From contig NZ_CP047146.1 in NCBI RefSeq assembly GCF_009834125.1, positions 1,481,501-1,545,500 on the forward strand: a DNA stretch of 64,000 nt, given 5' to 3'. A model generated the notes under the pieces. That model had not been told where the DNA came from and made no database searches. It was given only the letters and a program-made list of their open reading frames with translations. Origin of the DNA: Streptomyces sp. GS7 (GTDB lineage: Bacteria > Actinomycetota > Actinomycetes > Streptomycetales > Streptomycetaceae). Of the stretch, positions 6,498 through 18,560 are shown one piece after another (position 1 is the first letter of the stretch; every line of letters begins with the position of its first letter). Position numbers and translations under genes: made by a program.

Positions 6498-8438
6498 ATG
6501 TCCGAGTCGGTTTTCCCGCAGCTCGAAGCTCTGCTGCCCCATGTGCAGAAGCCGATCCAGTACGTCGGCGGAGAGCTGAATTCCACCGTTAAGCCCTGGG
6601 ACAGCTGCGACGTCCGCTGGGCGCTCATGTACCCCGACGCCTACGAGGTCGGGCTGCCCAACCAGGGCGTCATGATCCTCTACGAGGTCCTCAACGAGCG
6701 GCAGGGCGTCCTCGCCGAGCGCACGTACAGCGTGTGGCCGGACCTCGAAGAGCTGATGCGCGAGCACGAGGTGCCGCAGTTCACCGTCGACAGCCACCGC
6801 CCGGTCGGTGCCTTCGACGTCTTCGGCCTGAGCTTCTCCACCGAACTCGGCTACACCAACATGCTCACCGCCCTGGACCTGGCCGGTATCCCGCTGGAGT
6901 CCAAGGACCGCACCGAGGACCACCCGCTGGTGCTGGCCGGCGGACACGCCGCCTTCAACCCGGAGCCGATCGCGGACTTCCTGGACTGCGCGGTGGTCGG
7001 CGACGGCGAGCAGGCGGTGCTGGAGATCACCGAGATCATCCGCGCCTGGAAGAACGAGGGCCGGCCGGGCGGGCGCGACGAGCTGCTCCTCCGCCTCGCC
7101 AGGACCGGCAGCGTCTACGTCCCCAAGTTCTACGACGTCGAGTACCTCGCCGACGGCCGCATCTCGCGCGTCGTGCCGAACCGCTCCGGCGTCCCGTGGC
7201 GGGTCTCCAAGCACACCGTCATGGACCTCGACGAGTGGCCCTACCCCAAGCAGCCGCTCGTCCCCCTGGCCGAGACCGTCCACGAGCGGATGTCGGTCGA
7301 GATCTTCCGTGGCTGCACCCGCGGCTGCCGTTTCTGCCAGGCCGGCATGATCACGCGTCCCGTACGGGAGCGAAGCATCACCGGCATCGGCGAGATGGTG
7401 GACAAGGGCCTGAAGGCCACGGGATTCGAGGAGGTCGGCCTGCTGTCGCTGTCCTCCGCGGACCACACCGAGATCGGCGACATCGCGAAGGGCCTCGCCG
7501 ACCGGTACGAGGAAGACAAGATCGGCCTGTCGCTCCCCTCCACCCGGGTCGACGCCTTCAACATCGACCTCGCCAACGAGCTGACCCGCAACGGCCGCCG
7601 CTCCGGGCTGACCTTCGCCCCCGAGGGCGGCAGCGAGCGGATCCGCAAGGTCATCAACAAGATGGTCTCCGAAGAGGACCTGATCAGGACCGTCTCGACC
7701 GCCTACGGCAACGGCTGGCGGCAGGTCAAGCTCTACTTCATGTGCGGTCTGCCGACCGAGACCGACGAGGACGTCCTCCAGATCGCGGACATGGCGACCA
7801 AGGTCATCGCCAAGGGCCGCGAGGTCTCCCGGTCCAACGACATCCGCTGCACGGTCTCCATCGGCGGGTTCGTGCCCAAGCCGCACACCCCCTTCCAGTG
7901 GGCCCCGCAGCTCTCCGCCGAGGAGACCGACGCCCGCCTGGAGAAGCTCCGCGACAAGATCCGCGGCGACAAGAAGTACGGCCGCTCCATCGGCTTCCGC
8001 TACCACGACGGCAAGCCCGGCATCGTCGAGGGCCTGCTCTCCCGCGGCGACCGCCGCATCGGCGCGGTCATCCGCGCCGTCTACGAGGACGGCGGCCGGT
8101 TCGACGGCTGGCGCGAGCACTTCTCGTACGACCGCTGGATGCAGGCCGCCGAGAAGACCCTCCCGGACTTCGGGGTGGACGTCGCCTGGTACACCACCCG
8201 CGAGCGCACCTACGAGGAGGTCCTCCCCTGGGACCACCTCGACTCCGGCCTGGACAAGGACTGGCTCTGGGAGGACTGGCAGGACGCCCTCGACGAGACC
8301 GAGGTCGAGGACTGCCGCTGGACCCCGTGCTTCGACTGCGGCGTCTGTCCTCAGATGGACACCCAGATCCAGATCGGCCCGACGGGCAAGAAGCTGCTCC
8401 CGCTGAGCGTGAAGCAGTCTGCGAACAGCGGCCAGTGA
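6498..8438 (+). CDS. B12-binding radical SAM protein (TIGR03960 type), 3' end apparently replaced
   Basis: A 646-residue protein with an N-terminal cobalamin-binding-like region, a radical SAM core with the cluster motif Cys273-x3-Cys277-x2-Cys280 (RGCTRGCRFCQAG), and a C-terminal Cys-rich end (CFDCGVC). The biochemical role of this family is unproven. It normally sits directly before a TIGR03936/DUF2344 gene, but here that partner is 9.3 kb away at 17715, separated by the insertion. The last residues after the conserved KKLLP (LSVKQSANSGQ) differ from the tail encoded at 16400-16423 (PTVVT), so the native tail has probably been exchanged for one carried by the inserted element. The reading frame is restored by this exchange. 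Confidence 0.9.
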   Translation: MSESVFPQLEALLPHVQKPIQYVGGELNSTVKPWDSCDVRWALMYPDAYEVGLPNQGVMILYEVLNERQGVLAERTYSVWPDLEELMREHEVPQFTVDSHRPVGAFDVFGLSFSTELGYTNMLTALDLAGIPLESKDRTEDHPLVLAGGHAAFNPEPIADFLDCAVVGDGEQAVLEITEIIRAWKNEGRPGGRDELLLRLARTGSVYVPKFYDVEYLADGRISRVVPNRSGVPWRVSKHTVMDLDEWPYPKQPLVPLAETVHERMSVEIFRGCTRGCRFCQAGMITRPVRERSITGIGEMVDKGLKATGFEEVGLLSLSSADHTEIGDIAKGLADRYEEDKIGLSLPSTRVDAFNIDLANELTRNGRRSGLTFAPEGGSERIRKVINKMVSEEDLIRTVSTAYGNGWRQVKLYFMCGLPTETDEDVLQIADMATKVIAKGREVSRSNDIRCTVSIGGFVPKPHTPFQWAPQLSAEETDARLEKLRDKIRGDKKYGRSIGFRYHDGKPGIVEGLLSRGDRRIGAVIRAVYEDGGRFDGWREHFSYDRWMQAAEKTLPDFGVDVAWYTTRERTYEEVLPWDHLDSGLDKDWLWEDWQDALDETEVEDCRWTPCFDCGVCPQMDTQIQIGPTGKKLLPLSVKQSANSGQ

Positions 8439-8664
8439 TGTGAGCGACGCCTTACGGCGGATCGCCGACGCTGTGACTGACGTCACGGAGCCCTGAGATG
8501 GCTGACGTGCTGAGCGCGCTCGGCGTCGGCGTCTCGGAGCGTCGGCGGTCCGTCGCATCGGCAGAGATGCCCGGAACGCCTCTGCCGACGCAGGGAGGCC
8601 CCTCGAACGTCCACTCCGAGGTTGAGTGGGTGTGAGGGGCCTTCGGGCGTATTGCGCGGCCTGG
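8344..8664 (+). repeat. Left junction repeat of the insertion (copy A)
   Basis: This stretch covers the last ~95 bp of the radical SAM gene plus ~225 bp of downstream noncoding DNA. It recurs at 12286-12597 with only scattered changes, a 6-bp in-frame insertion and a 16-bp deletion. The first 52 bp (8352-8403) also recur at 16355-16406 with one mismatch. I read it as the attL-like junction. Outside the coding part it contains TGACGTCA at 8478-8485 and two conserved hairpins. Confidence 0.8.
8555..8642 (+). terminator. Two consecutive hairpins in the element left arm
   Basis: Hairpin 1 pairs 8555-8566 with 8580-8591 (12 bp, one G-T). Hairpin 2 pairs 8596-8604 with 8634-8642 (AGGCCCCTC/GAGGGGCCT), with an inner CCACTC/GAGTGG stem. 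The same structures occur at 12487-12574, where the apical loop changed but the stems are intact. They may terminate the radical SAM transcript or serve recombination. Confidence 0.6.
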
Positions 8665-8894
8665 TTGTCCGATGGTCGCCGGAGTGCCCGCGCCCGAGTG
8701 CTGCACGCGCCCTGTCTAGGCCATTCGTTCGAATCGGGTCGAGAAGGCCAGCGTGACCGAACGCGACTCAGTGGGCTGACTGCCGTGTCGGCGCGGCGCC
8801 TGTCACCCCCGGGCAGGGGGCCGAGGCGCCGCGGGCCGCAGTCGACGACGGTCAAACCGCCGCCTTGCACCCACCGTCTCGGTGCTGGGCCGGG

Positions 8895-10019
8895 TCAAGC
8901 GCCAAGCGCGTCGTCGGCTCTGCGCGGCTCTGCGCGCGGCTGCTGGTTGAGCTTGTGGCGCGCGATGGAGGATCGTCGGTAGACCTCCTTGCGGGCCCGC
9001 ATGATGTTCCCCAGGGGCGCGTGCTCGGCGGTGACCCGCCAGGGCGTGAAGGACAGCGCGTCCATCTTCTCCAGGTTTTCCGGGCCGGAGATGTCCTGCT
9101 GTGGCAGCCGCAGCTTGGCCACGGTGACGGACGGCGAGAGCTGTTCCGGCCACTCCACGGTGGTGTCCTCCACCGGCATGCGTTCCAGGTCGGTGCAGAG
9201 TTGTACCTGGATGTCGAAGGCGTAGGGCCGTTCCTGCAACTCGGCTTGCAGGGCGGGTCGGAAGACCTCCGCCGTCGAGGTCGGGTCGATGGTGCGCCGG
9301 ACCACCGCGGCGGCGGAGGACGGGTCGGGGGTGATCCGCACCTTGGCGATGTAGTCCCCGTGCCGGACCGCGCCCATCGTCCAGTAGCTCGACAGCAGCA
9401 GGTGTGCCGGAGGGGTCTTCGACAGGCGCAGGAAGGCCAGGAACTCGTCCCACGCCCAGTTGTCCTGGTCCAGCGTTCCCTTCCCGGTCACGAACTCGGT
9501 GAAGAAACGACGCGCGCCGGGTCGGCCCTTGGAGAAGTAGGCCGGCGCGTTCAGGAACAATTCCTGGATGAACAGGTAGTGCTCGACCGTGTTGCAGAAG
9601 AAGATCGGTCCGTTGATGTTGGCGTAGTCGAATGTGCCCGTGTCCGGTTCGTCTTCCAGCAGGGTCGGGCCGGGGATGTCGAACATCTTCAGCGCCAGTC
9701 CGGTGGCGGCGCCCAGTCGCGCGTCGGCTCCGGCGTGAGGCGAGCCGTTGGAGAAGCGGATGAGCGCATCATGGGTTCCCGGAGTCGCGTAGATGCCTTG
9801 GGCGTACTCGGGGGGAAGCCCGTCCAGGATCTCCACTTCCCCTCGGACCAGCCCGTAGCCTTTGGCGTGGGCGTCGCGGAGGGCCCGTCCAGTGCCGCCG
9901 GCCTTGACCGACTCGGCGATGTAGCTCTCCGTTTTTTCGATCACCGTCTGCACGTTGCGGTCGAAGTCCGGGTCGTCGTCTTCGACCTCAGGCGTGTAGC
10001 GGACGAACTGTGCTGCCAT
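8895..10019 (-). CDS. Catalase-family heme protein (short, y4iL-like)
   Basis: A 374-residue protein with the minimal catalase fold. The distal side shows RDAHAKGYGLVRGEVEI (candidate distal His), followed by ALIRFSNGSPHAGAD, and the proximal R-x-x-x-Y heme-tyrosine motif is RKEVY near the C-terminus. It is much shorter than classical monofunctional catalases (~480+ residues) and resembles the catalase-like group that includes allene-oxide-synthase and peroxide-using enzymes, so the reaction (catalase, peroxidase or lipid hydroperoxide chemistry) is open. It is the last gene of a minus-strand trio, 54 bp after the DyP peroxidase gene, pointing to peroxide or hydroperoxide handling. Confidence 0.82.
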   Translation of the reverse strand: MAAQFVRYTPEVEDDDPDFDRNVQTVIEKTESYIAESVKAGGTGRALRDAHAKGYGLVRGEVEILDGLPPEYAQGIYATPGTHDALIRFSNGSPHAGADARLGAATGLALKMFDIPGPTLLEDEPDTGTFDYANINGPIFFCNTVEHYLFIQELFLNAPAYFSKGRPGARRFFTEFVTGKGTLDQDNWAWDEFLAFLRLSKTPPAHLLLSSYWTMGAVRHGDYIAKVRITPDPSSAAAVVRRTIDPTSTAEVFRPALQAELQERPYAFDIQVQLCTDLERMPVEDTTVEWPEQLSPSVTVAKLRLPQQDISGPENLEKMDALSFTPWRVTAEHAPLGNIMRARKEVYRRSSIARHKLNQQPRAEPRRADDALGA

Positions 10020-10073
10020 GGCTTCGACCTCTCCTCGAAGAGCGTGATCGGACCTCAGGGGTGGGAATCGCCG

Positions 10074-11426
10074 TCAGTCCTCCAGTGCGGCGAGCCAGCG
10101 CAGGGCACGCAGCCCCGGCAGGAAGCAGTACTCGCCGCCGCGGGTGACCACGAAGCCGGGCAGGTTCTGCAGGCGCCGTCGGACCGGCTTCTCCGGGATG
10201 GTGACGCTGCCGGTTCCGCCGTGATGTCCGGCCACCGGGTCCTTCTCGCCTGGGTAGCCGATGAAGTTGCCGTCGTTGACCCATTCGGCCTTGATGAACT
10301 CAAACTGTCGTTCCAGGTGGGCCCCGATGAATACTCCGACCAAGCCGCGGTCGGCGCCGTCGTCCTCCAGTACGCCCTCGGGCAGCGGCGGGCCGTAGGT
10401 GGTGCCGCGGCGGATGAGCCGGTGCATCCGTGCGTCGCCGATGATGGTGGCATCACGGGGGTTGGTGCGCCGGATGTGCGCACCAGCGGGGCACCGGTAC
10501 CCTCGGTCGTCGTTCTCCCGGTACAGGAAGTTGTTGACGCGGTGCGGATCGGCCGCCAGCTCCGGATCATCGCGCTCCGGTGCCAGCGTCAGCGGTGCTC
10601 CGCTCGGCCAGCGCCCGACCATCTTCGCCGCCAGGAGCGCCTCCTCCTCGGCGCTGGAACTGTTCGCGCGCAGGTACCGGCGCCAGGCCGCCACGTCGGT
10701 GTGAATCTTGCGAACGGCCACGTAGGTCCCGTTGCGCCCCAGCACATCGGGGCTGGGGATGGGCGGCAGGCTGCCGGTTTCGTCGGGGTAGCCGAGGATG
10801 AACTCGCCGGCCTTGATGGGGGCTTCCTGGGGGTTGGAGCCGGGTAGCCCGACTCCCTCGATGTTCGGATGGCTGATGCCGTCACGGAAGCCGAAGGTGG
10901 TACGCCCGGTCGGGAGCTGGCGGACCTCCTGCTGCCAGATCACCTGGACGTCGGGAGTGTCCTCGTAGGCGACACGGGCCCGCTCCAGCTCCTTGTCCAG
11001 CTGTCCCGCGTCGGAGGAGAGGGCACTCAACGCGATGTGGACATCGCCGGTTCCGAACGGCGCCTCCCAGCGGGCCGGCGCGCACTCGCCCACGTCGCCG
11101 ATCAGCTCCGCCCGAGCGGCCATGCCCTCACGAAACGCCCGCGGAAAACTGTCCAGCGACTCCTGGGGCACCCCCAGGGCCCTCAGCCCCTGAAAGGTGA
11201 ACGCCACAGCGACCCAGGCATCCTGTCTCCGGTCCGCGCTCGGCAGACCACCCGAGGTCACCGGGAGCAGCCGCCGCAGCAGGGCGCGCCCGGCATGGCG
11301 GTCATCGACGCGCAGGAAGACGAACTTTCCCTCGTACGGGACGGGCCTCGGACGCAGGGCCCCACTTTGGACGTCGTCGATCTCGACGCTCACGCCGGCC
11401 GCGCTACTGGTGTCCGCTGCGTTCAT
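10074..11426 (-). CDS. Dye-decolorizing (DyP-type) heme peroxidase
   Basis: A 450-residue DyP peroxidase. The hallmark GxxDG motif is at residues 179-183 (FGFRDGISHP; Asp as distal acid) and the proximal heme ligand is His317 in AGAHIRRTNPRD. No Tat or Sec signal peptide is visible, so it is probably cytoplasmic or encapsulated. The start at 11426 is preferred over the upstream in-frame codon at 11486 because a GGAGG lies 11 nt before it. It sits between a gene of unknown function and a catalase-like gene in one minus-strand unit, and is part of the inserted element. Confidence 0.9.
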   Translation of the reverse strand: MNAADTSSAAGVSVEIDDVQSGALRPRPVPYEGKFVFLRVDDRHAGRALLRRLLPVTSGGLPSADRRQDAWVAVAFTFQGLRALGVPQESLDSFPRAFREGMAARAELIGDVGECAPARWEAPFGTGDVHIALSALSSDAGQLDKELERARVAYEDTPDVQVIWQQEVRQLPTGRTTFGFRDGISHPNIEGVGLPGSNPQEAPIKAGEFILGYPDETGSLPPIPSPDVLGRNGTYVAVRKIHTDVAAWRRYLRANSSSAEEEALLAAKMVGRWPSGAPLTLAPERDDPELAADPHRVNNFLYRENDDRGYRCPAGAHIRRTNPRDATIIGDARMHRLIRRGTTYGPPLPEGVLEDDGADRGLVGVFIGAHLERQFEFIKAEWVNDGNFIGYPGEKDPVAGHHGGTGSVTIPEKPVRRRLQNLPGFVVTRGGEYCFLPGLRALRWLAALED

Positions 11427-11543
11427 GGTTGCTTGTGCCTCCACATCGGTCTCTGCCTGGACAGCCCTGCTATGGCCGACTCGCACCGGCTGGCGTGGTC
11501 CACCGATGGTGGGTGGGCTCCGAGGGTCGGCTGTGTCCGGGTT

Positions 11544-12134
11544 CTAGGCCGAGGCTTCCTCCAGCAGCTTCTGGAAGGCAGGAGTGGCCACCAACTCCGC
11601 GTTGGCCGGGTTGTCCAGCGCCGCCCGGAACTGGGGGGTGTCCAGCACCTCCTGGAACGCGTCGTCCACGCGGTGGTCCTTGTAGATCTGCTGAACGGTC
11701 AGGTCGGGGTAGGCGCTGACGAAGACTCCTGCGGGCTCCTGGTGGGCGACGAACCAGTCCTTCACCCCTGGATCGGCGATGCCGGGGAATCCTTCGCTGT
11801 GCGAGAAGACCTTGTCGAAGCGGGCCCCGACCACCGTCTGGGCGAAGTCGTCGATGTAGGTGTCCCAGGAGCCGTCGAAAACGCTGGCGAACATGAACCG
11901 GGTGTCGTTGTCGAAGATCACGTGCCGTGCGTCATGCAGGGTGCCGATCTGGCGCACCGCCGCATGGACCCTCTCGTCATCCGCCGCGTCGGCGAGCGTG
12001 GCGAGGTCCTTACGCAGCGCATCCGCATGGCCCGGCTTGATCTTGGTAAAGACGGTGAACTCGCTGCAGACTCCATCCGACCTGCCCGGGCGCTCGGGGT
12101 GAGGCGATCGGGTTGCACCTGTCGTCGCGGTCAT
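11544..12134 (-). CDS. Unknown protein, first gene of the peroxidase cluster
   Basis: A 196-residue soluble protein with no family name that I recognise with certainty. Short alternating strand/helix segments (FTVFTKIKPGHADALRKDL, HDARHVIFDNDTRFMFASVF) suggest a ferredoxin-like or dimeric alpha-beta barrel fold, which is also the fold of DyP domains. The C-terminal third is helical and acidic. The start at 12134 has GGGAGAG 8 nt upstream. It leads the trio (117 bp before DyP), so it may assist or pair with the peroxidase, but this is only from context. His residues (HDARHV, FSHSEGF) could be metal or heme ligands; this is unproven. Confidence 0.6.
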   Translation of the reverse strand: MTATTGATRSPHPERPGRSDGVCSEFTVFTKIKPGHADALRKDLATLADAADDERVHAAVRQIGTLHDARHVIFDNDTRFMFASVFDGSWDTYIDDFAQTVVGARFDKVFSHSEGFPGIADPGVKDWFVAHQEPAGVFVSAYPDLTVQQIYKDHRVDDAFQEVLDTPQFRAALDNPANAELVATPAFQKLLEEASA

Positions 12135-12285
12135 CGTGGATCTCTCCCAACCACGGATCGGTGCGAGGGCCACCAAGCACCCGAGCATGAGGCGCCATCG
12201 CCCTCACATATCAATCCTCACTGCGGATACATTGCCGCGCATCCCAAGCCTTCTAGTTCGGAGAGGGCCCGTTTGGGGACCTCGA

Positions 12286-12597
12286 TCTGCCCTCAGATGG
12301 ACACCCAGATCCAGATCGCCCCGACGGGCAAGAAGCTGCTCCCGCTGAGCGTGAAGCAGCCTGCGAACAGCGCAAACGGCCAGTGACGTGAGCGACGCCT
12401 TACGGCGGATCGCCGACGCTGTGACTGACGTCACGGAGCCCTGAGATGGCTGACGTGCTGAGCGCGCTCGGCGTCGGCGGTCCGTCGCATCGGCAGAGAT
12501 GCCCGGAACGCCTCTGCCGACGCAGGGAGGCCCCTCGAACGTCCACTCAGAGGTGGAGTGGGTGTGAGGGGCCTTTCGGGCTGTCTCGCGGCCTCTA
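12286..12597 (+). repeat. Middle junction repeat (copy B)
   Basis: A second copy of the radical SAM 3' end and the noncoding left arm, offset 3942 bp from copy A. Its coding frame still reads CPQMDTQIQIAPTGKKLLP to a stop at 12384-12386, with no gene in front. It marks the boundary between the two cargo segments. In the wider gap 12135-12698 there are also the promoter region of the peroxidase unit and an AT-richer ~50 bp right arm (12240-12285). Confidence 0.8.
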
Positions 12598-12698
12598 GGG
12601 TCTGTCCGTCGGGTCGTGAGGTGCACTCGTTGCACCGGACGGGCGGAGCGATCACCGGTGCTGTCTTCGGTGGTGGCGAGCCGTGATGTGATGGCGCC

Positions 12699-13091
12699 GT
12701 GAGTCGCGCTGCAGAAGAGACCAACCGCCGCATGCTCCGGGCGCGGGATGTGATGGACCGTGTCTACGCGCAGCCGCTGGACGTGCCGGCCCTGGCCCGG
12801 ATCGCGCACGTGTCACAGGCGCACTTCTCCCGCACCTTCCGGGCCACGTTCGGCGAGACGCCGCATCGCTACCTGCAGCGCCGCCGTGTCGAGCGGGCCA
12901 TGTTCCTGCTGCGGGAGACTGACCGCAGTGTGACGGACATCTGCTTCGAGGTCGGCTTCGGCAGCCCGGGAACCTTCAGCCGCACGTTCCGCGACATCGT
13001 CGGGCGGTCGCCGAGGACGTACCGCAAGGAAGCGGTGGCCACGGGCGTGCCGACGTGCTTCACGATGGCGTGGACGCGACCGAGCGGCTGA
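12699..13091 (+). CDS. AraC-type transcriptional regulator, DNA-binding domain only
   Basis: A 130-residue protein consisting almost entirely of the AraC/XylS tandem helix-turn-helix domain. The first HTH is around LARIAHVSQAHFSRTFRATFG and the second has the family signature VTDICFEVGFGSPGTFSRTFRDIVGRSPRTYR. No sensing domain is present, unlike most AraC members (~300 residues), so it may respond by abundance or by binding a partner. It starts at GTG 12699. The next gene, 81 bp downstream, is a VOC-fold protein, a frequent pairing in actinobacteria that suggests it controls or is co-expressed with that gene. Confidence 0.88.
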   Translation: MSRAAEETNRRMLRARDVMDRVYAQPLDVPALARIAHVSQAHFSRTFRATFGETPHRYLQRRRVERAMFLLRETDRSVTDICFEVGFGSPGTFSRTFRDIVGRSPRTYRKEAVATGVPTCFTMAWTRPSG

Positions 13092-13172
13092 TCTTCCGTC
13101 CTGCTCGTGCCGCCCGTCGACAGAGCAGTTCTGGATAAGTTTTCGTCCCGCCGGCTCAGTAGCGTGATGCAC

Positions 13173-13583
13173 ATGTTCAACGCCATCACGCACTCGCAGA
13201 TATACGTCCTGGACCAGGACGAGGCCCTCGACTTCTACGTCGGCAAGCTCGGCCTGGAGGTCGCCGCCGACGTCGACTTGGGCTTCATGCGCTGGCTGGC
13301 CGTCAGCGTTCCCGGTCATCCCGAGCGCCAGATCCTGCTGGAGAAGCCGGGCGTTCCGGCGATGTCCGAGGAGACGGCGGAGCAGGTCCGGGAGCTGGTG
13401 ACCAAGGGTGCGATGGGTGGGTGGCTCATCTTCACCACGGACGACTGCCGCAAGACGTACGAGACGCTGCTGGGCCGAGGCGTGGAGTTCACCGAGGAAC
13501 CCACGGACCGCCCGTACGGTAGCGACTGCGGACTTCGCGACCCCTTTGGGAACCGGATCCGCTTCACCCAGCCAAGGGCCTAG
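13173..13583 (+). CDS. VOC superfamily (glyoxalase/bleomycin-resistance type) protein
   Basis: A ~136-residue protein with two beta-alpha-beta-beta-beta repeats typical of the vicinal oxygen chelate fold (THSQIYVLDQDEALDFYVGKLGLEV and the terminal DPFGNRIRFTQ). Substrate unknown; members include glyoxalase I, dioxygenases and antibiotic-binding proteins. Two ATGs are close: 13167 and 13173. I prefer 13173 because TAGCGT at 13160-13165 would be a -10 box 7 nt before it, giving a leaderless message, and no ribosome site is seen. It follows the AraC gene. Confidence 0.8.
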   Translation: MFNAITHSQIYVLDQDEALDFYVGKLGLEVAADVDLGFMRWLAVSVPGHPERQILLEKPGVPAMSEETAEQVRELVTKGAMGGWLIFTTDDCRKTYETLLGRGVEFTEEPTDRPYGSDCGLRDPFGNRIRFTQPRA

Positions 13584-13763
13584 ATGGTCGATTCCAAGGG
13601 GTTTGGTGGTCGTAGGCGGTCAGTGCGCGCATGACCGGCTGACCGCGCATGAACCTGGCTCCACTCATCAGGCCCCCTTGAAATCGATCATCTGGGGGCT
13701 GTCCGGCGGGTCACCCCGCAGCCATAGCCGGATCGTGGCGAGGGTGACCGTGCTGGGCCGAAC

Positions 13764-14198
13764 TCACACGGTGGGCCTGCTGCTGGTGCAGCAGGCGTCG
13801 CCTTCCAGGGCGGGGGCCTTGCCCATCTCGTCGGCGTCGGCTTTGACGACGTAGACCTCCCAGGGCTCCTCGCCTGGGCCGCGGACCCAGACCTTGTCCT
13901 GGACGGCATAGCAGCAGGGGGTGCCGTTCTCCTCGAAGGTCGCAAGTCCCGCTTCCTTGAGGCGGTCGGTGGCCGCGGTGACCAGGTCGGTGGAATCGAC
14001 CTCGACGCCGAGGTGGTCCAGCCGGGTCTCCTGGCCGGGCTCACCTTCGATCAGGACAAGTTTCAGCGGCGGCTCGGCGATGGCGAAGTTGGCGTAACCG
14101 GGGCGGCGCTTGGCCGGCTCGACACCGAACAGCGTGGAGTAGAACTCCACCGACGCATCGAGGTCGGGGACGTTGAGCGCGAGCTGAACGCGGGGCAT
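13764..14198 (-). CDS. arsI: ArsI/CadI-family protein, probable C-As lyase
   Basis: A 144-residue VOC-fold protein close to the actinobacterial CadI/ArsI group. The arsenic-binding vicinal pair is Cys95-Cys96 in GTPCCYAVQDKVWV; likely Fe ligands are Gln5, His62 (LDHLG) and Glu114 (PWEVY). ArsI splits methyl- or aryl-arsenic bonds of trivalent organoarsenicals. An extra CC pair at residues 136-137 near the C-terminus could also bind As(III). The start at 14198 has GAGGAGA 5 nt upstream. It is transcribed divergently from arsR, so a shared 79-bp control region probably puts both under ArsR. A cadmium-linked role (CadI) is the alternative. Confidence 0.82.
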   Translation of the reverse strand: MPRVQLALNVPDLDASVEFYSTLFGVEPAKRRPGYANFAIAEPPLKLVLIEGEPGQETRLDHLGVEVDSTDLVTAATDRLKEAGLATFEENGTPCCYAVQDKVWVRGPGEEPWEVYVVKADADEMGKAPALEGDACCTSSRPTV

Positions 14199-14277
14199 GA
14201 CACTCTCCTCATCGCAGTGCATTGATGACTGTCGATGCAACCTTGCGCCTTGAATCGAAGTTGGTCAACATAGAGGT
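14199..14277. promoter_or_regulatory. arsI/arsR divergent control region
   Basis: A 79-bp region between divergent genes. It contains the interrupted dyad TTGA-N11-TCAA (14250-14268), a plausible ArsR operator, just upstream of arsR. The exact operator cannot be proven from sequence. Confidence 0.45.
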
Positions 14278-14679
14278 ATGTCGAATCAAGAGCGTGAGGT
14301 GCTCGGCCAGTCCCAGGAATGCTGTCCGGGGCTGCTGACCGCGCCGTTGGACGAGGGCCAGGCCACAGAGCTGGCGAAGGTCTTCAAGGCCCTGGGGGAT
14401 CCGGTGCGGCTGCGGCTGCTGTCGATGATCGCCTCCCGGGCCGGTGGTGAGGTGTGCGTGTGCGATCTGACGCCGGCGTTCGATCTGTCGCAGCCGACGA
14501 TCTCCCACCACCTCAAGCTGCTGCGACAGGCCGGGCTGATCGACTGCGAACGCCGCGGGACGTGGGTCTATTACTGGCTGCTGCCGGAGATGACCGACCG
14601 CCTCGCCGGGATACTGACCCGCCCCGCAGGCCAGCCCCTTCCCCGGACCGACCGGACGCCCGCGGGAGCCGCCTCGTGA
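14278..14679 (+). CDS. arsR: ArsR/SmtB-family arsenic-responsive repressor
   Basis: A 133-residue winged-helix repressor. The recognition helix is in LSQPTISHHLKLLRQAGL (about residues 70-87). Cysteines are at 15-16 (ECC) and at 60 and 62 (EVCVCDL). The N-terminal Cys15-Cys16 pair plus a later Cys resembles the As(III) site described for Corynebacterium ArsR rather than the E. coli CxC-only site. It should derepress the downstream efflux and reductase genes and divergent arsI when As(III) binds. Its stop overlaps the GTG of the next gene. Confidence 0.93.
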   Translation: MSNQEREVLGQSQECCPGLLTAPLDEGQATELAKVFKALGDPVRLRLLSMIASRAGGEVCVCDLTPAFDLSQPTISHHLKLLRQAGLIDCERRGTWVYYWLLPEMTDRLAGILTRPAGQPLPRTDRTPAGAAS

Positions 14680-15794
14680 CCGCGACGGACACCACCACGG
14701 CGGCGGGGACGGTCGCGGCCCGGCTCTCGTTCCTGGACCGCTTCCTGGCCGTGTGGATCCTGCTGGCCATGGCCGCCGGCCTCGGCCTGGGCCGCCTGGT
14801 TCCGGGGCTGGGGGACGCGCTGGCGAAGGTGACGGTCACCGGCGTCTCGCTGCCGATCGCGCTCGGGCTGCTGGTGATGATGTATCCGGTCCTGGCCAAG
14901 GTCCGCTATGACCGCCTGGACACCGTCGCCCGCGACCGCCGTCTGCTGATCCCCTCGCTGGTGATCAACTGGATCGTCGGCCCGGCCCTGATGTTCGCGC
15001 TCGCGTGGTTCCTCCTGCCCGACCTGCCGGAGTACCGGACCGGGTTGATCATCGTCGGGCTGGCCCGCTGCATCGCCATGGTCATCATCTGGAACGACCT
15101 GGCCTGCGGCGACCGCGAAGCCGCCGCCGTCCTGGTCGCCCTGAACTCCGTCTTCCAGGTCCTGGCGTTCAGCTTGCTCGGCTGGTTCTATCTCTCGGTC
15201 CTGCCCGGCTGGCTCGGCCTGGAACAGACCGGGCTGAGTGTCTCGGTGTGGGAGATCGCCCGCAGCGTGCTGATCTTCCTTGGCATCCCCCTGGCCGCCG
15301 GCTTCCTGACCCGCCGCTTGGGCGAGAAGGCCAAGGGCCGCACCTGGTACGAGACCAGGCTGATCCCGCGGATCGGCCCGTTCGCCCTGTGGGGCCTGCT
15401 GTTCACGATCGTTGTGCTCTTCGCTCTCCAGGGCGATGCCATCACCTCCCGGCCCCTGGACGTCGCGCGCATCGCGCTGCCGCTGCTGGCGTATTTCGCT
15501 GTCATGTGGGCCGGGTCAATGGCTCTGGGCAAGGCCGTTGGGCTGGACTATCCGCGGGCGACGACACTGGCGTTCACGGCGGCCGGCAACAACTTCGAAC
15601 TGGCCATCGCCGTTGCCATCGCGACGTTCGGCGCGACCTCCGGCCAGGCCCTGGCCGGGGTCGTCGGACCTCTCATCGAGGTCCCGGTCCTGATCGGCCT
15701 GGTCCATGTCGCCCTGGCCGCCCGCCGCCTCTTCCCCGACACACCCGCCCCGGCTACCGAGTCGGCCGGTCTCAAGGAGCCCGCCCGTGGCTGA
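14676..15794 (+). CDS. acr3: ACR3-family arsenite efflux permease
   Basis: A 372-residue polytopic membrane protein with ten predicted helices. ACR3 marks include the membrane Cys in GLARCIAMVIIWNDLACGD, which is essential in characterised ACR3 proteins, and the late motif TLAFTAAGNNFELAIAVAIATFG. It exports As(OH)3 using the proton gradient. The GTG start overlaps the arsR stop by 4 nt (GTGA), and its own end overlaps arsC by 8 nt, so the three form one translationally coupled operon. Confidence 0.93.
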   Translation: MTATDTTTAAGTVAARLSFLDRFLAVWILLAMAAGLGLGRLVPGLGDALAKVTVTGVSLPIALGLLVMMYPVLAKVRYDRLDTVARDRRLLIPSLVINWIVGPALMFALAWFLLPDLPEYRTGLIIVGLARCIAMVIIWNDLACGDREAAAVLVALNSVFQVLAFSLLGWFYLSVLPGWLGLEQTGLSVSVWEIARSVLIFLGIPLAAGFLTRRLGEKAKGRTWYETRLIPRIGPFALWGLLFTIVVLFALQGDAITSRPLDVARIALPLLAYFAVMWAGSMALGKAVGLDYPRATTLAFTAAGNNFELAIAVAIATFGATSGQALAGVVGPLIEVPVLIGLVHVALAARRLFPDTPAPATESAGLKEPARG

Positions 15795-16206
15795 GTCCCG
15801 CACGTCATCGGTGCTCTTCGTCTGCGTCCACAACGCTGGACGCTCCCAGATGGCCGCCGCCTTCCTCGCCCACCTCGCCGGCGACCAGGTGGAAGTCCGT
15901 TCGGCCGGCTCCGCCCCTGCCGGCGCGGTGAACCCGGCGGTGGTCGAGGCTATGGCCGAGGTCGGCATCGACCTGTCCGCCCAGACCCCGAAAGTACTGA
16001 CTGCCGAGGCCGTTCAGGCGTCCGACGTCGTGATCACCATGGGCTGCGGGGATGCCTGCCCGATCTTCCCCGGCAAGAAGTACCTGGACTGGAGGCTGGA
16101 CGACCCCGCCGGCCAAGGAGTGGACGCCGTCCGACCGATCCGCGACGAGATCGAACGGCGGATCCGCGCCCTGCTGGACGAGCTGCGGTCGTCGGCCCGA
16201 ACCTGA
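15787..16206 (+). CDS. arsC: Arsenate reductase, low-molecular-weight phosphatase type
   Basis: A 139-residue protein with the LMW-PTPase P-loop CX5R at Cys13-Arg19 (CVHNAGRSQMAAAF), a second cysteine pair in TMGCGDACPIFPGKKY and the general-acid Asp region LDDPAGQ. It reduces arsenate to arsenite for export by ACR3. The pattern of several cysteines fits thioredoxin- or mycothiol-linked recycling; which one cannot be decided. GTG at 15787 has AAGGAG 8 nt upstream and overlaps the end of acr3. Confidence 0.92.
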   Translation: MAESRTSSVLFVCVHNAGRSQMAAAFLAHLAGDQVEVRSAGSAPAGAVNPAVVEAMAEVGIDLSAQTPKVLTAEAVQASDVVITMGCGDACPIFPGKKYLDWRLDDPAGQGVDAVRPIRDEIERRIRALLDELRSSART

Positions 16207-16354
16207 CAGGTCCGGGCGAGACCGGGCGAAGGCACGGACGTCGGCTCCGACCGCCCCCGCGGAACTCTTGGTCTCCAGCCTCCAGCGGGGCGACACGGTG
16301 CTGAGGGGCAGGGGCAGGGGCTACCGGGCGCGCTTACGGAGCGCTGTTCGTCCG

Positions 16355-16423
16355 CAGATGGACACCCGGATCCAGATCGGCCCGACGGGCAAGAAGCTGC
16401 TCCCGCCGACCGTCGTCACGTAG
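16355..16423 (+). pseudogene. Displaced original 3' end of the radical SAM gene (copy C)
   Basis: It encodes PQMDTRIQIGPTGKKLLPPTVVT and then a stop. 51 of the first 52 bases match 8352-8403. After that it diverges from copies A and B and runs into a GC-rich hairpin. The position on the core-genome side suggests it is the native gene end pushed away by the insertion, equivalent to an attR site. It has no start codon and is not expressed as a gene. Confidence 0.72.
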
Positions 16424-17714: not shown

Positions 17715-18560
17715 CTGGGCAAGCGACAGCCCGAAGGCCCGCCGCCCGCACCGGCGGTGCAGCGCATCCGACTGCGCTACACCAAGCGCGGCCGCCTCCG
17801 GTTCACCAGCCACCGCGACTTCCAGCGCGCTTTCGAGCGGGCGTTGCGCCGCGCCGAGGTCCCCATGGCCTATTCGGCGGGCTTCACCCCGCACCCCAAG
17901 GTGTCGTACGCCAACGCCGCCCCGACGGGCACCGGCAGCGAGGCCGAGTATCTGGAGATCCAGCTCACCGCGCGCCGTGACCCGGAGGAGCTGCGCGAGC
18001 TGCTCGACGAGTCCCTGCCGGGCGGCCTCGACGTGATCGACGCCGTGGAGGCGCACACCAGCGGCCTCGCCGACCGGCTGCAGGCGTCGGTGTGGGAGAT
18101 CCGGCTCGACGGCGTCGCCGCCGAGGAGGCCGGGCGCGCCGTCGAGGCGTTCCTCGCCGCCGAGGAAGTACAGGTCGAGCGCCGCACCAAAAACGGCATG
18201 CGGTCCTTCGACGCGCGGGGCGCGGTGGCGCGCCTGGAGGCAGCGGCTGCCGAGGGCGATAGGCCCGACGGCAATGCCTGTGCGATACTGCGGCTGGTTG
18301 TTCGGCATCTGACACCTGCCGTTCGACCCGACGACGTCCTGTCCGGCCTCCGAGCTACGGCCGACCTGGCGCCGCCGGTCCCCGCAGCGGTGACCAGGCT
18401 GGCGCAGGGGCTGCTCGATGAGGAGACCGGCGCGGTGACCGACCCGCTAGCGCCCGACCGCGACGCTGCCATGGCCGCCTCATCCACGGCCGCCGGGCTG
18501 AGTGCCGCGACGGCGCCGAGTGGGGCCTCCCCGGCGATTTCCGGGGAAGGTACTGCGTAG
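17715..18560 (+). CDS. TIGR03936-type (DUF2344) radical-SAM-associated protein, likely CTG start
   Basis: A 281-residue protein, core region RIRLRYTKRGRLRFTSHRDFQRAFERAL. The family usually follows or is fused to the B12-binding radical SAM protein, here encoded at 6498; the inserted elements now separate them. The best ribosome site AAGGAGAA (17701-17708) is 6 nt before CTG at 17715, whereas the first ATG/GTG in frame (GTG 17757) has none, so CTG is the probable start and adds GKRQPEGPPPAPA. The C-terminus is Ala-rich and disordered. Function is unproven; it may present or modify tRNA or protein substrates for the radical SAM partner. Confidence 0.82.
   Translation: MGKRQPEGPPPAPAVQRIRLRYTKRGRLRFTSHRDFQRAFERALRRAEVPMAYSAGFTPHPKVSYANAAPTGTGSEAEYLEIQLTARRDPEELRELLDESLPGGLDVIDAVEAHTSGLADRLQASVWEIRLDGVAAEEAGRAVEAFLAAEEVQVERRTKNGMRSFDARGAVARLEAAAAEGDRPDGNACAILRLVVRHLTPAVRPDDVLSGLRATADLAPPVPAAVTRLAQGLLDEETGAVTDPLAPDRDAAMAASSTAAGLSAATAPSGASPAISGEGTA

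Follow-up and report, generated by a model that had tools for sequence, protein, structure and literature searches.

The chromosome of Streptomyces sp. GS7 (a single contig of 9,067,183 bases) raises the question of how peroxidase and arsenic genes came to lie between a conserved gene and its partner, among repeats of the gene's own end. The stretch of DNA that was analysed, here called the window, has a length of 64,000 nucleotides. The genes on both sides of the interval are those named in a preliminary description of this DNA: (i) a TIGR03960 B12-binding radical SAM gene, SCO2606-like, whose 3' end contains attB (6498..8438, plus strand); and (ii) a TIGR03936 partner gene, which forms the conserved right flank (17757..18560, plus strand). 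Between them, a 52-bp core starts at 8352 (R1), 12294 (R2) and 16355 (R3), with spacings of 3942 and 4061 bp and a single mismatch in 52 bases between R1 and R3. Sequence comparison bore out these three cores, both spacings and the 51/52 identity of the outer copies, and the similarity is far above chance (BLAST E 2e-126 for R1/R2 and 1e-22 for R1/R3). The description of a 52-bp repeat was exact for the core, but it missed that R1 and R2 are alike over about 300 bp (8344-8662 versus 12286-12594), a stretch that takes in a small ORF and a hairpin.

R1 and R2 are copies of a module of about 300 bp which contains (i) the core; (ii) a tail (LSVKQSANSGQ in R1 and LSVKQPANSANGQ in R2); (iii) a broken small ORF, which begins GTGAGCGACGCC directly after the tail stop; and (iv) an inverted repeat or hairpin. 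All the parts are on the plus strand. R1 consists of the core (8352..8403), the tail with its stop (8404..8438) and the small ORF (8440..8637), whose 3' end overlaps the inverted repeat; in R2, the core (12294..12345) is followed by the second tail and broken ORF (12346..12567). R3 (16347-16423), by contrast, is the core only (16355..16423 up to its stop, plus strand) and ends KKLLPPTVVT, the last eight residues being LLPPTVVT. It is the displaced native end of the radical SAM gene, as had been proposed. The claim that this third copy has its own stop and terminator held for the stop (TAG at 16421-16423), but the GC-rich inverted repeat after it has, by eye, no T run, and the terminator scan listed neither this repeat nor the R1/R2 hairpins.

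The cargo is as previously described, namely peroxide enzymes in one cassette and AraC/VOC plus arsenic genes in the other. Cargo 1, on the minus strand, comprises (i) a protein without Pfam or NCBIfam match (8895..10019), always beside the peroxidase in those examined loci that have both; (ii) a DyP-type peroxidase (10074..11486); and (iii) the third gene of the peroxidase operon, again without Pfam or NCBIfam match (11544..12188). Cargo 2a, on the plus strand, consists of an AraC-type regulator (12699..13091) and a glyoxalase/VOC protein (13107..13583). Cargo 2b begins with an ArsI/CadI VOC metalloenzyme on the minus strand (13764..14240), and continues on the plus strand with an ArsR-type regulator (14278..14679), an ACR3 arsenite efflux protein (14676..15794) and an arsenate reductase-like LMW phosphatase (ArsC) that scores below the NCBIfam cut-offs (15787..16206).

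The site is not new: going by the sequence and by published passages, phage phiJoe and SCO2603-type mobile elements use it as their attB. According to the passages of Fogg et al. (2017, PMC5311408), the phiJoe attB is situated in an SCO2606-like radical SAM gene, at 74 bp from its end, and SCO2603 elements, which carry int and gp52 homologues at opposite ends and have a variable content, lie at this attB. A passage of PMC12924846 (citing Ko et al., 2020) gives the radical SAM gene as the site of phiJoe, phiOZJ and phiWTR. In consequence, since PMC5311408 places both phiJoe attB and the SCO2603 elements there, the earlier assertion that no described element family uses this site was wrong; the idea of the radical SAM 3' end as a recurrent site-specific insertion point is supported across relatives.

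The position of the window cassettes in the radical SAM gene is that of the phiJoe attB. With SCO2603-type elements, as portrayed in those passages, they have in common the attB, the core, the position of the tail, a putative gp52-type excision factor (RDF) at one end and variable cargo; they differ from them in having no integrase, a broken RDF and a host-type right arm at R1, and in standing in tandem with near-identical modules. The phiJoe record (L079) annotates gp52, attP and int. This phage shares its attB with the window and its attP phage arm likewise encodes, by eye, an in-frame tail, but phiJoe is a whole phage and the window would hold 4-kb remnants.

As regards the tail, all 12 radical-SAM-proximal copies examined have an open frame through the core for 24-33 residues. 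The right arm of phiJoe attP is an in-frame tail too, whose stop overlaps the gp52 start (by eye). Judged from these reading frames, the element side of the site, that of phiJoe included, encodes an in-frame replacement tail. That the element supplies such a tail had been suggested before and is upheld in general; the addition that this happened each time by insertion fits R1 and R2 poorly, because their modules are 98% identical and share one frameshift. The alternative that LSVKQSANSGQ is the ancestral tail of empty sites found no match, as the window's tail occurs in 0 of 18 apparently empty loci (those with no RDF in view within about 1.5 kb downstream), whose tails are LTVV-type or K(N/Q)-rich native ones.

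The small ORF appears to belong to the gp52-type RDF family, a connection made through the other members. Of nine family members, seven scored 55-75 against phiJoe gp52, above all 200 shuffles (shuffle maxima 36-52), while those of L009 and L068, the nearest kinds to the window, scored 36 and 38, within the shuffles. Two of the three members tested matched the PHROG of gp52 (L063, 1.7e-5; L071, 2.2e-4); L068 gave no PHROG match, and a phage search with the L009 ORF reached a best E of only 0.8. The family search ties RDF members to L068 at 1e-12 to 1e-13. At the other end from the integrase of SCO2603-type elements, R1 and R2 have a putative gp52-type family member with a one-base frameshift common to both copies; a further 16 bases are missing in R2. 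Before this ORF was recognised as an RDF, the hairpin had been considered as an integron-like attC, a reading then set aside.

The integrase of this site is found in relatives. A Resolvase-domain recombinase, 66-69% identical to the phiJoe integrase, adjoins the right-hand core in L062, L063 and L077. In the genus search, the start codon lies 24-77 bp from a radical-SAM-tail core in 28 of the 30 best-scoring integrase loci (the exceptions being L160 and L164), whose identity to the phiJoe integrase is 64-70%; integrases adjoining the core elsewhere, which the preliminary description had suggested looking for, do therefore exist. Forty-seven of the 392 genomes of the genus sample match the integrase at E 1e-100, 33 of them with at least 65% identity to the query. 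RDF-type ORFs occur in 58 of the 392 genomes; an integrase with 65% or more identity to the query accompanies them in 27 and is missing from the other 31. Among 16 fetched core loci, the integrase is present in three, reduced to an N-terminal stub of 60-79 residues at the right-hand core in one (L066), and absent in 12, including L075, whose integrase lies outside the fetched stretch. The Streptomyces sp. GS7 genome has no phiJoe-like integrase (best match, 29% identity), and the cassettes are therefore stranded. The search for integrase remnants in the window gave nothing better than E 0.76, and nothing in either cassette.

Other possible movers and carriers were considered. Tyrosine integrases (PF00589) occur at 19 places in the genome but none in the window, and in 15 relatives none lies at core loci among the matches listed; on these grounds, a tyrosine integrase was rejected as the mover. 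The module had no match in phages or viral contigs, and a single partial one among plasmids, confined to the radical SAM gene end (26% of the query).

Taken together, the cassettes are very probably decayed, immobile remnants of phiJoe/SCO2603-type elements that accreted between the radical SAM gene and its partner. The identity of the site, the RDF and integrase families, the linkage of integrase and core in relatives and the absence of the integrase from this genome are read directly from sequence; the course of events is a reconstruction. An intact element would be bounded on the right by a large serine integrase and on the left by a gp52-like RDF, and its integration at attB, near the gene end, would exchange the last codons for an element-encoded in-frame tail. 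The window would then hold two stacked remnants which have lost the integrase and suffered a frameshift in the RDF, and which have kept attR (R3) and the cargo. As neither cassette retains an integrase remnant, we infer that they formerly carried one. Later, the element arm of attL would have been overwritten by host sequence, making R1 attB-like again, and R2 would have been copied within the species, for instance when core repeats from two strains that differed in cargo underwent unequal homologous recombination. Against decay of such elements stand (i) the missing element-type (P') arm at R1; (ii) the window-type RDF, not significantly gp52-like by itself; (iii) the missing integrase remnant; (iv) the post-hoc nature of the arm rule given below; and (v) the modules away from the gene in the same chromosome.

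Comparable accretion has been described for AICEs (Choufa et al., 2022 type). The passages of PMC9513070 likewise describe one site with several elements lying between repeats, remnants that lack functional genes, and possible mobilization in cis; there, the sites are a tRNA gene and others, whereas here a protein gene and the serine-integrase family are involved. Of the genes that define an AICE (integrase, Rep and Tra), none is among the cargo families of the window, and they are present in L062 of a relative. This locus unites RepSA, an FtsK-like protein and a serine recombinase at the radical SAM site, in the manner of the AICEs with a serine recombinase in the passages of PMC3218068; the window, unlike these, has none of the three. 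L062:3354-19663 is an array of two modules; its right part, 14.7 kb long, is a pSAM2-like AICE (RepSA, FtsK-like, GntR) which also carries a phiJoe-type serine integrase and an APH-family protein. L075 has four or more cores in an array, and its cargo includes Mrr/TerD, N6-methylase and DUF4291 genes, possibly defence-related.

How the second module arose is a question of its own. R1 and R2 are 98% identical, with a divergence of 1.8% plus two indels, whereas identity in 22 pairs from other arrays ranges from 65.6 to 87.6%; four of these pairs involve approximate core positions (L074 9853 and L075 7670). The rare CTGCTCCCG codons, common to R1, R2 and R3, were seen in only 2 of 53 cores elsewhere. 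Moreover, in genome G191, with a radical SAM protein of 97% identity, a left module that is 92% identical and the same right flank enclose different cargo. By these comparisons, one of R1 and R2 was probably copied within the species, and it is unlikely that a fresh foreign element was the last to bring either module. The identity of R1 and R2, their common frameshift, the CTGCTCCCG codons and the cargo of G191 are better accommodated by unequal recombination between strains or by gene conversion.

A stricter version, in which R2 came from homologous recombination only, has a chance somewhat short of even. Here, one strain would have held cassette 1 and another cassette 2, and the R3 core of the former would have crossed over unequally with the R1 core of the latter. 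This version yields exactly the observed order, is in keeping with the small divergence and common frameshift of R1 and R2 and with the occurrence of the CTGCTCCCG codons in R3 as well, and agrees with a close relative, G191, in which wholly different cargo sits between the same left module and right flank. Nevertheless, the crossover would have had just about 60 bp of homology, no single-cassette strain was found, and gene conversion following site-specific insertion would look identical. Vertical descent of the left module was also considered; the G191 figures fit it (flanks 93.7%, module 91.5-92.1%), but it is unproven because an off-site module of G366 (L069), compared with the core left out, is as close (91.8-92.3%). 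Gene conversion was examined through the identity of the first and last arms within eight arrays, with mixed results and no clear within-genome excess.

The preliminary description had instead regarded the integrase-less cassettes as a separate mobile class, repeatedly inserted at the core by a recombinase acting in trans. Cassettes flanked by cores but devoid of an integrase are indeed common (12 of the 16 fetched core loci), L064 has a near-identical peroxidase cassette between two cores (90-93% for two of the three proteins), and the passages of PMC5311408 report that the phiJoe integrase uses S. coelicolor attL and attR at low frequency. But the own genome has no phiJoe-like integrase, the RDF is broken and R1 and R2 are 98% identical. 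In addition, the integrase at this place is intact, reduced to a stub or absent, depending on the relative, so that integrase decay is the simpler account, and action in trans is improbable.

The distribution of the cargo also bears on this point. As expected, strains differ in their cargo, and at the radical SAM site peroxidase or arsenic genes turn up repeatedly. The peroxidase operon, with near-full-length matches in 14 genomes of the genus sample besides the own one, was located at 62 loci in named genomes, five of them at the site (with the radical SAM gene in L088, L101 and L135, core plus RDF in L118, and the partner gene only in L093). A single core, and no right-hand one, was seen in each of L088, L101 and L135, and L101 has arsenic genes besides the operon. 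Furthermore, a different DyP lies beside cores together with arsenic genes in G255 and beside a core in G286, and ArsR/ArsC genes are at the site in G110 and G201. Elsewhere, the AraC/VOC (2a) and arsenic genes form separate chromosomal blocks, and no core is near the peroxidase, AraC/VOC or arsenic block in 12 of 14 fetched loci, the other two having been picked for a nearby RDF. Hence, the cargo consists of ordinary operons that recur here, and not of cassettes that take their cores along everywhere, which again argues against a trans-acting recombinase. A second DyP subfamily, 58-62% identical to that of the window, abuts a core in three genomes, at L064:14178-15431, L193:9708-11166 and L194:9756-11188.

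Finally, that the module is merely the native gene end of this clade, with cargo nearby by chance, is very hard to maintain: the module is at the gene also in G191, G311 and, decayed, G366, but the same tail-RDF module has a phiJoe-type integrase at its other end across the genus, apparently empty sites have no module, and cargo ends coincide with cores.

Returning to decayed phiJoe/SCO2603-type elements, the arms of the site suggest what may follow integrase loss. R3 fits attR. R1 has a host-type left arm and a host-type right arm (B', codon 7 CAG) in place of P', and is hence attB-like and not a textbook attL; in R2, the left arm is element-derived and the right arm host-type (codon 7 CAG). 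All 17 apparently empty sites that gave an arm (the partner gene being in view in five of these) have CAG as codon 7 of the right arm; CAA stands there in all 27 integrase-bearing occupied genomes, and also in the annotated attP of phiJoe. The 32 integrase-less occupied genomes are divided into 19 with CAG and 13 with CAA; Fisher's test gives 3.6e-7 (9e-7 with RDF-search genomes only), for a rule chosen after the arms had been seen, in related genomes and with integrase presence scored per genome. Four of the CAG arms (G108, G128, G183 and G297) are not host-like elsewhere in the arm, and two of the CAA arms (G033 and G255) are otherwise host-like. The counts omit L075, L205, L206, L223 and L231, which have no radical SAM gene in view (four genomes are represented otherwise), and G388, for the same reason; L058 yielded no arm, and it represents the right-hand site of G379 rather than an empty one. 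An earlier peptide rule (W at residue 5; 17/10 versus 5/27, p 3e-4) mixed two arm types and was replaced by codon 7. On the simplest reading of the codon-7 counts, host sequence replaces the element arm once the integrase has been lost and, to judge from R1, attL then seems to revert to attB.

A doubtful, though possible, extension is that the site works as a self-renewing landing pad: after integrase loss, the host would overwrite the gene end and turn attL into a reusable attB, and the modules would allow stacking and swapping without an integrase. If so, (i) an element tail, an RDF fossil and cargo would be left behind at each renewed attB; (ii) the locus would collect peroxidase and arsenic genes in the manner of an integron; and (iii) cassettes from different strains would be stacked or swapped by homologous recombination between the repeated modules. 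Since phiJoe-type integration vectors target this gene end, reversion of occupied sites to attB would bear on which strains accept them. The intact, stub, integrase-less and arm-reverted stages may also serve as a dated series for the domestication of integrated elements, and as a case of repeated arrival of peroxidase and arsenic genes at one site. The in-frame element tail, the codon-7 arm pattern and the near-identity of R1 and R2 go beyond the passages of PMC5311408; the open-access literature, to which the search was confined (subscription papers being outside it), gave no account of arm reversion or of these cassettes.

The chromosome of Streptomyces sp. GS7 contains further modules, at 4,602,622 (L008:8590) and 4,710,074 (L009, reverse strand). 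Cores and modules off the gene, which had been named in advance as an observation that would speak against site-specific integration, do therefore occur in this genome. Both consist of a tail-RDF module standing alone, at a distance from the radical SAM gene and with an element-type (P') arm; they may stem from secondary-site insertion or from rearrangement. A DyP-type peroxidase gene (L008:6499-7656) lies about 1 kb before the first of them. At 4,715,644 there is a hairpin without the rest of the module; this inverted repeat (L009:15645-15704), with neither core nor RDF, is by eye beside a transposase-like ORF remnant. Lastly, an orphan, core-like radical SAM tail, ETDIQIGSTGRKLLPPSIV followed by a stop, is found at 4,333,581 (L011:5582-5642), about 30 kb from three neighbouring tyrosine recombinases (4,363,145-4,366,968).
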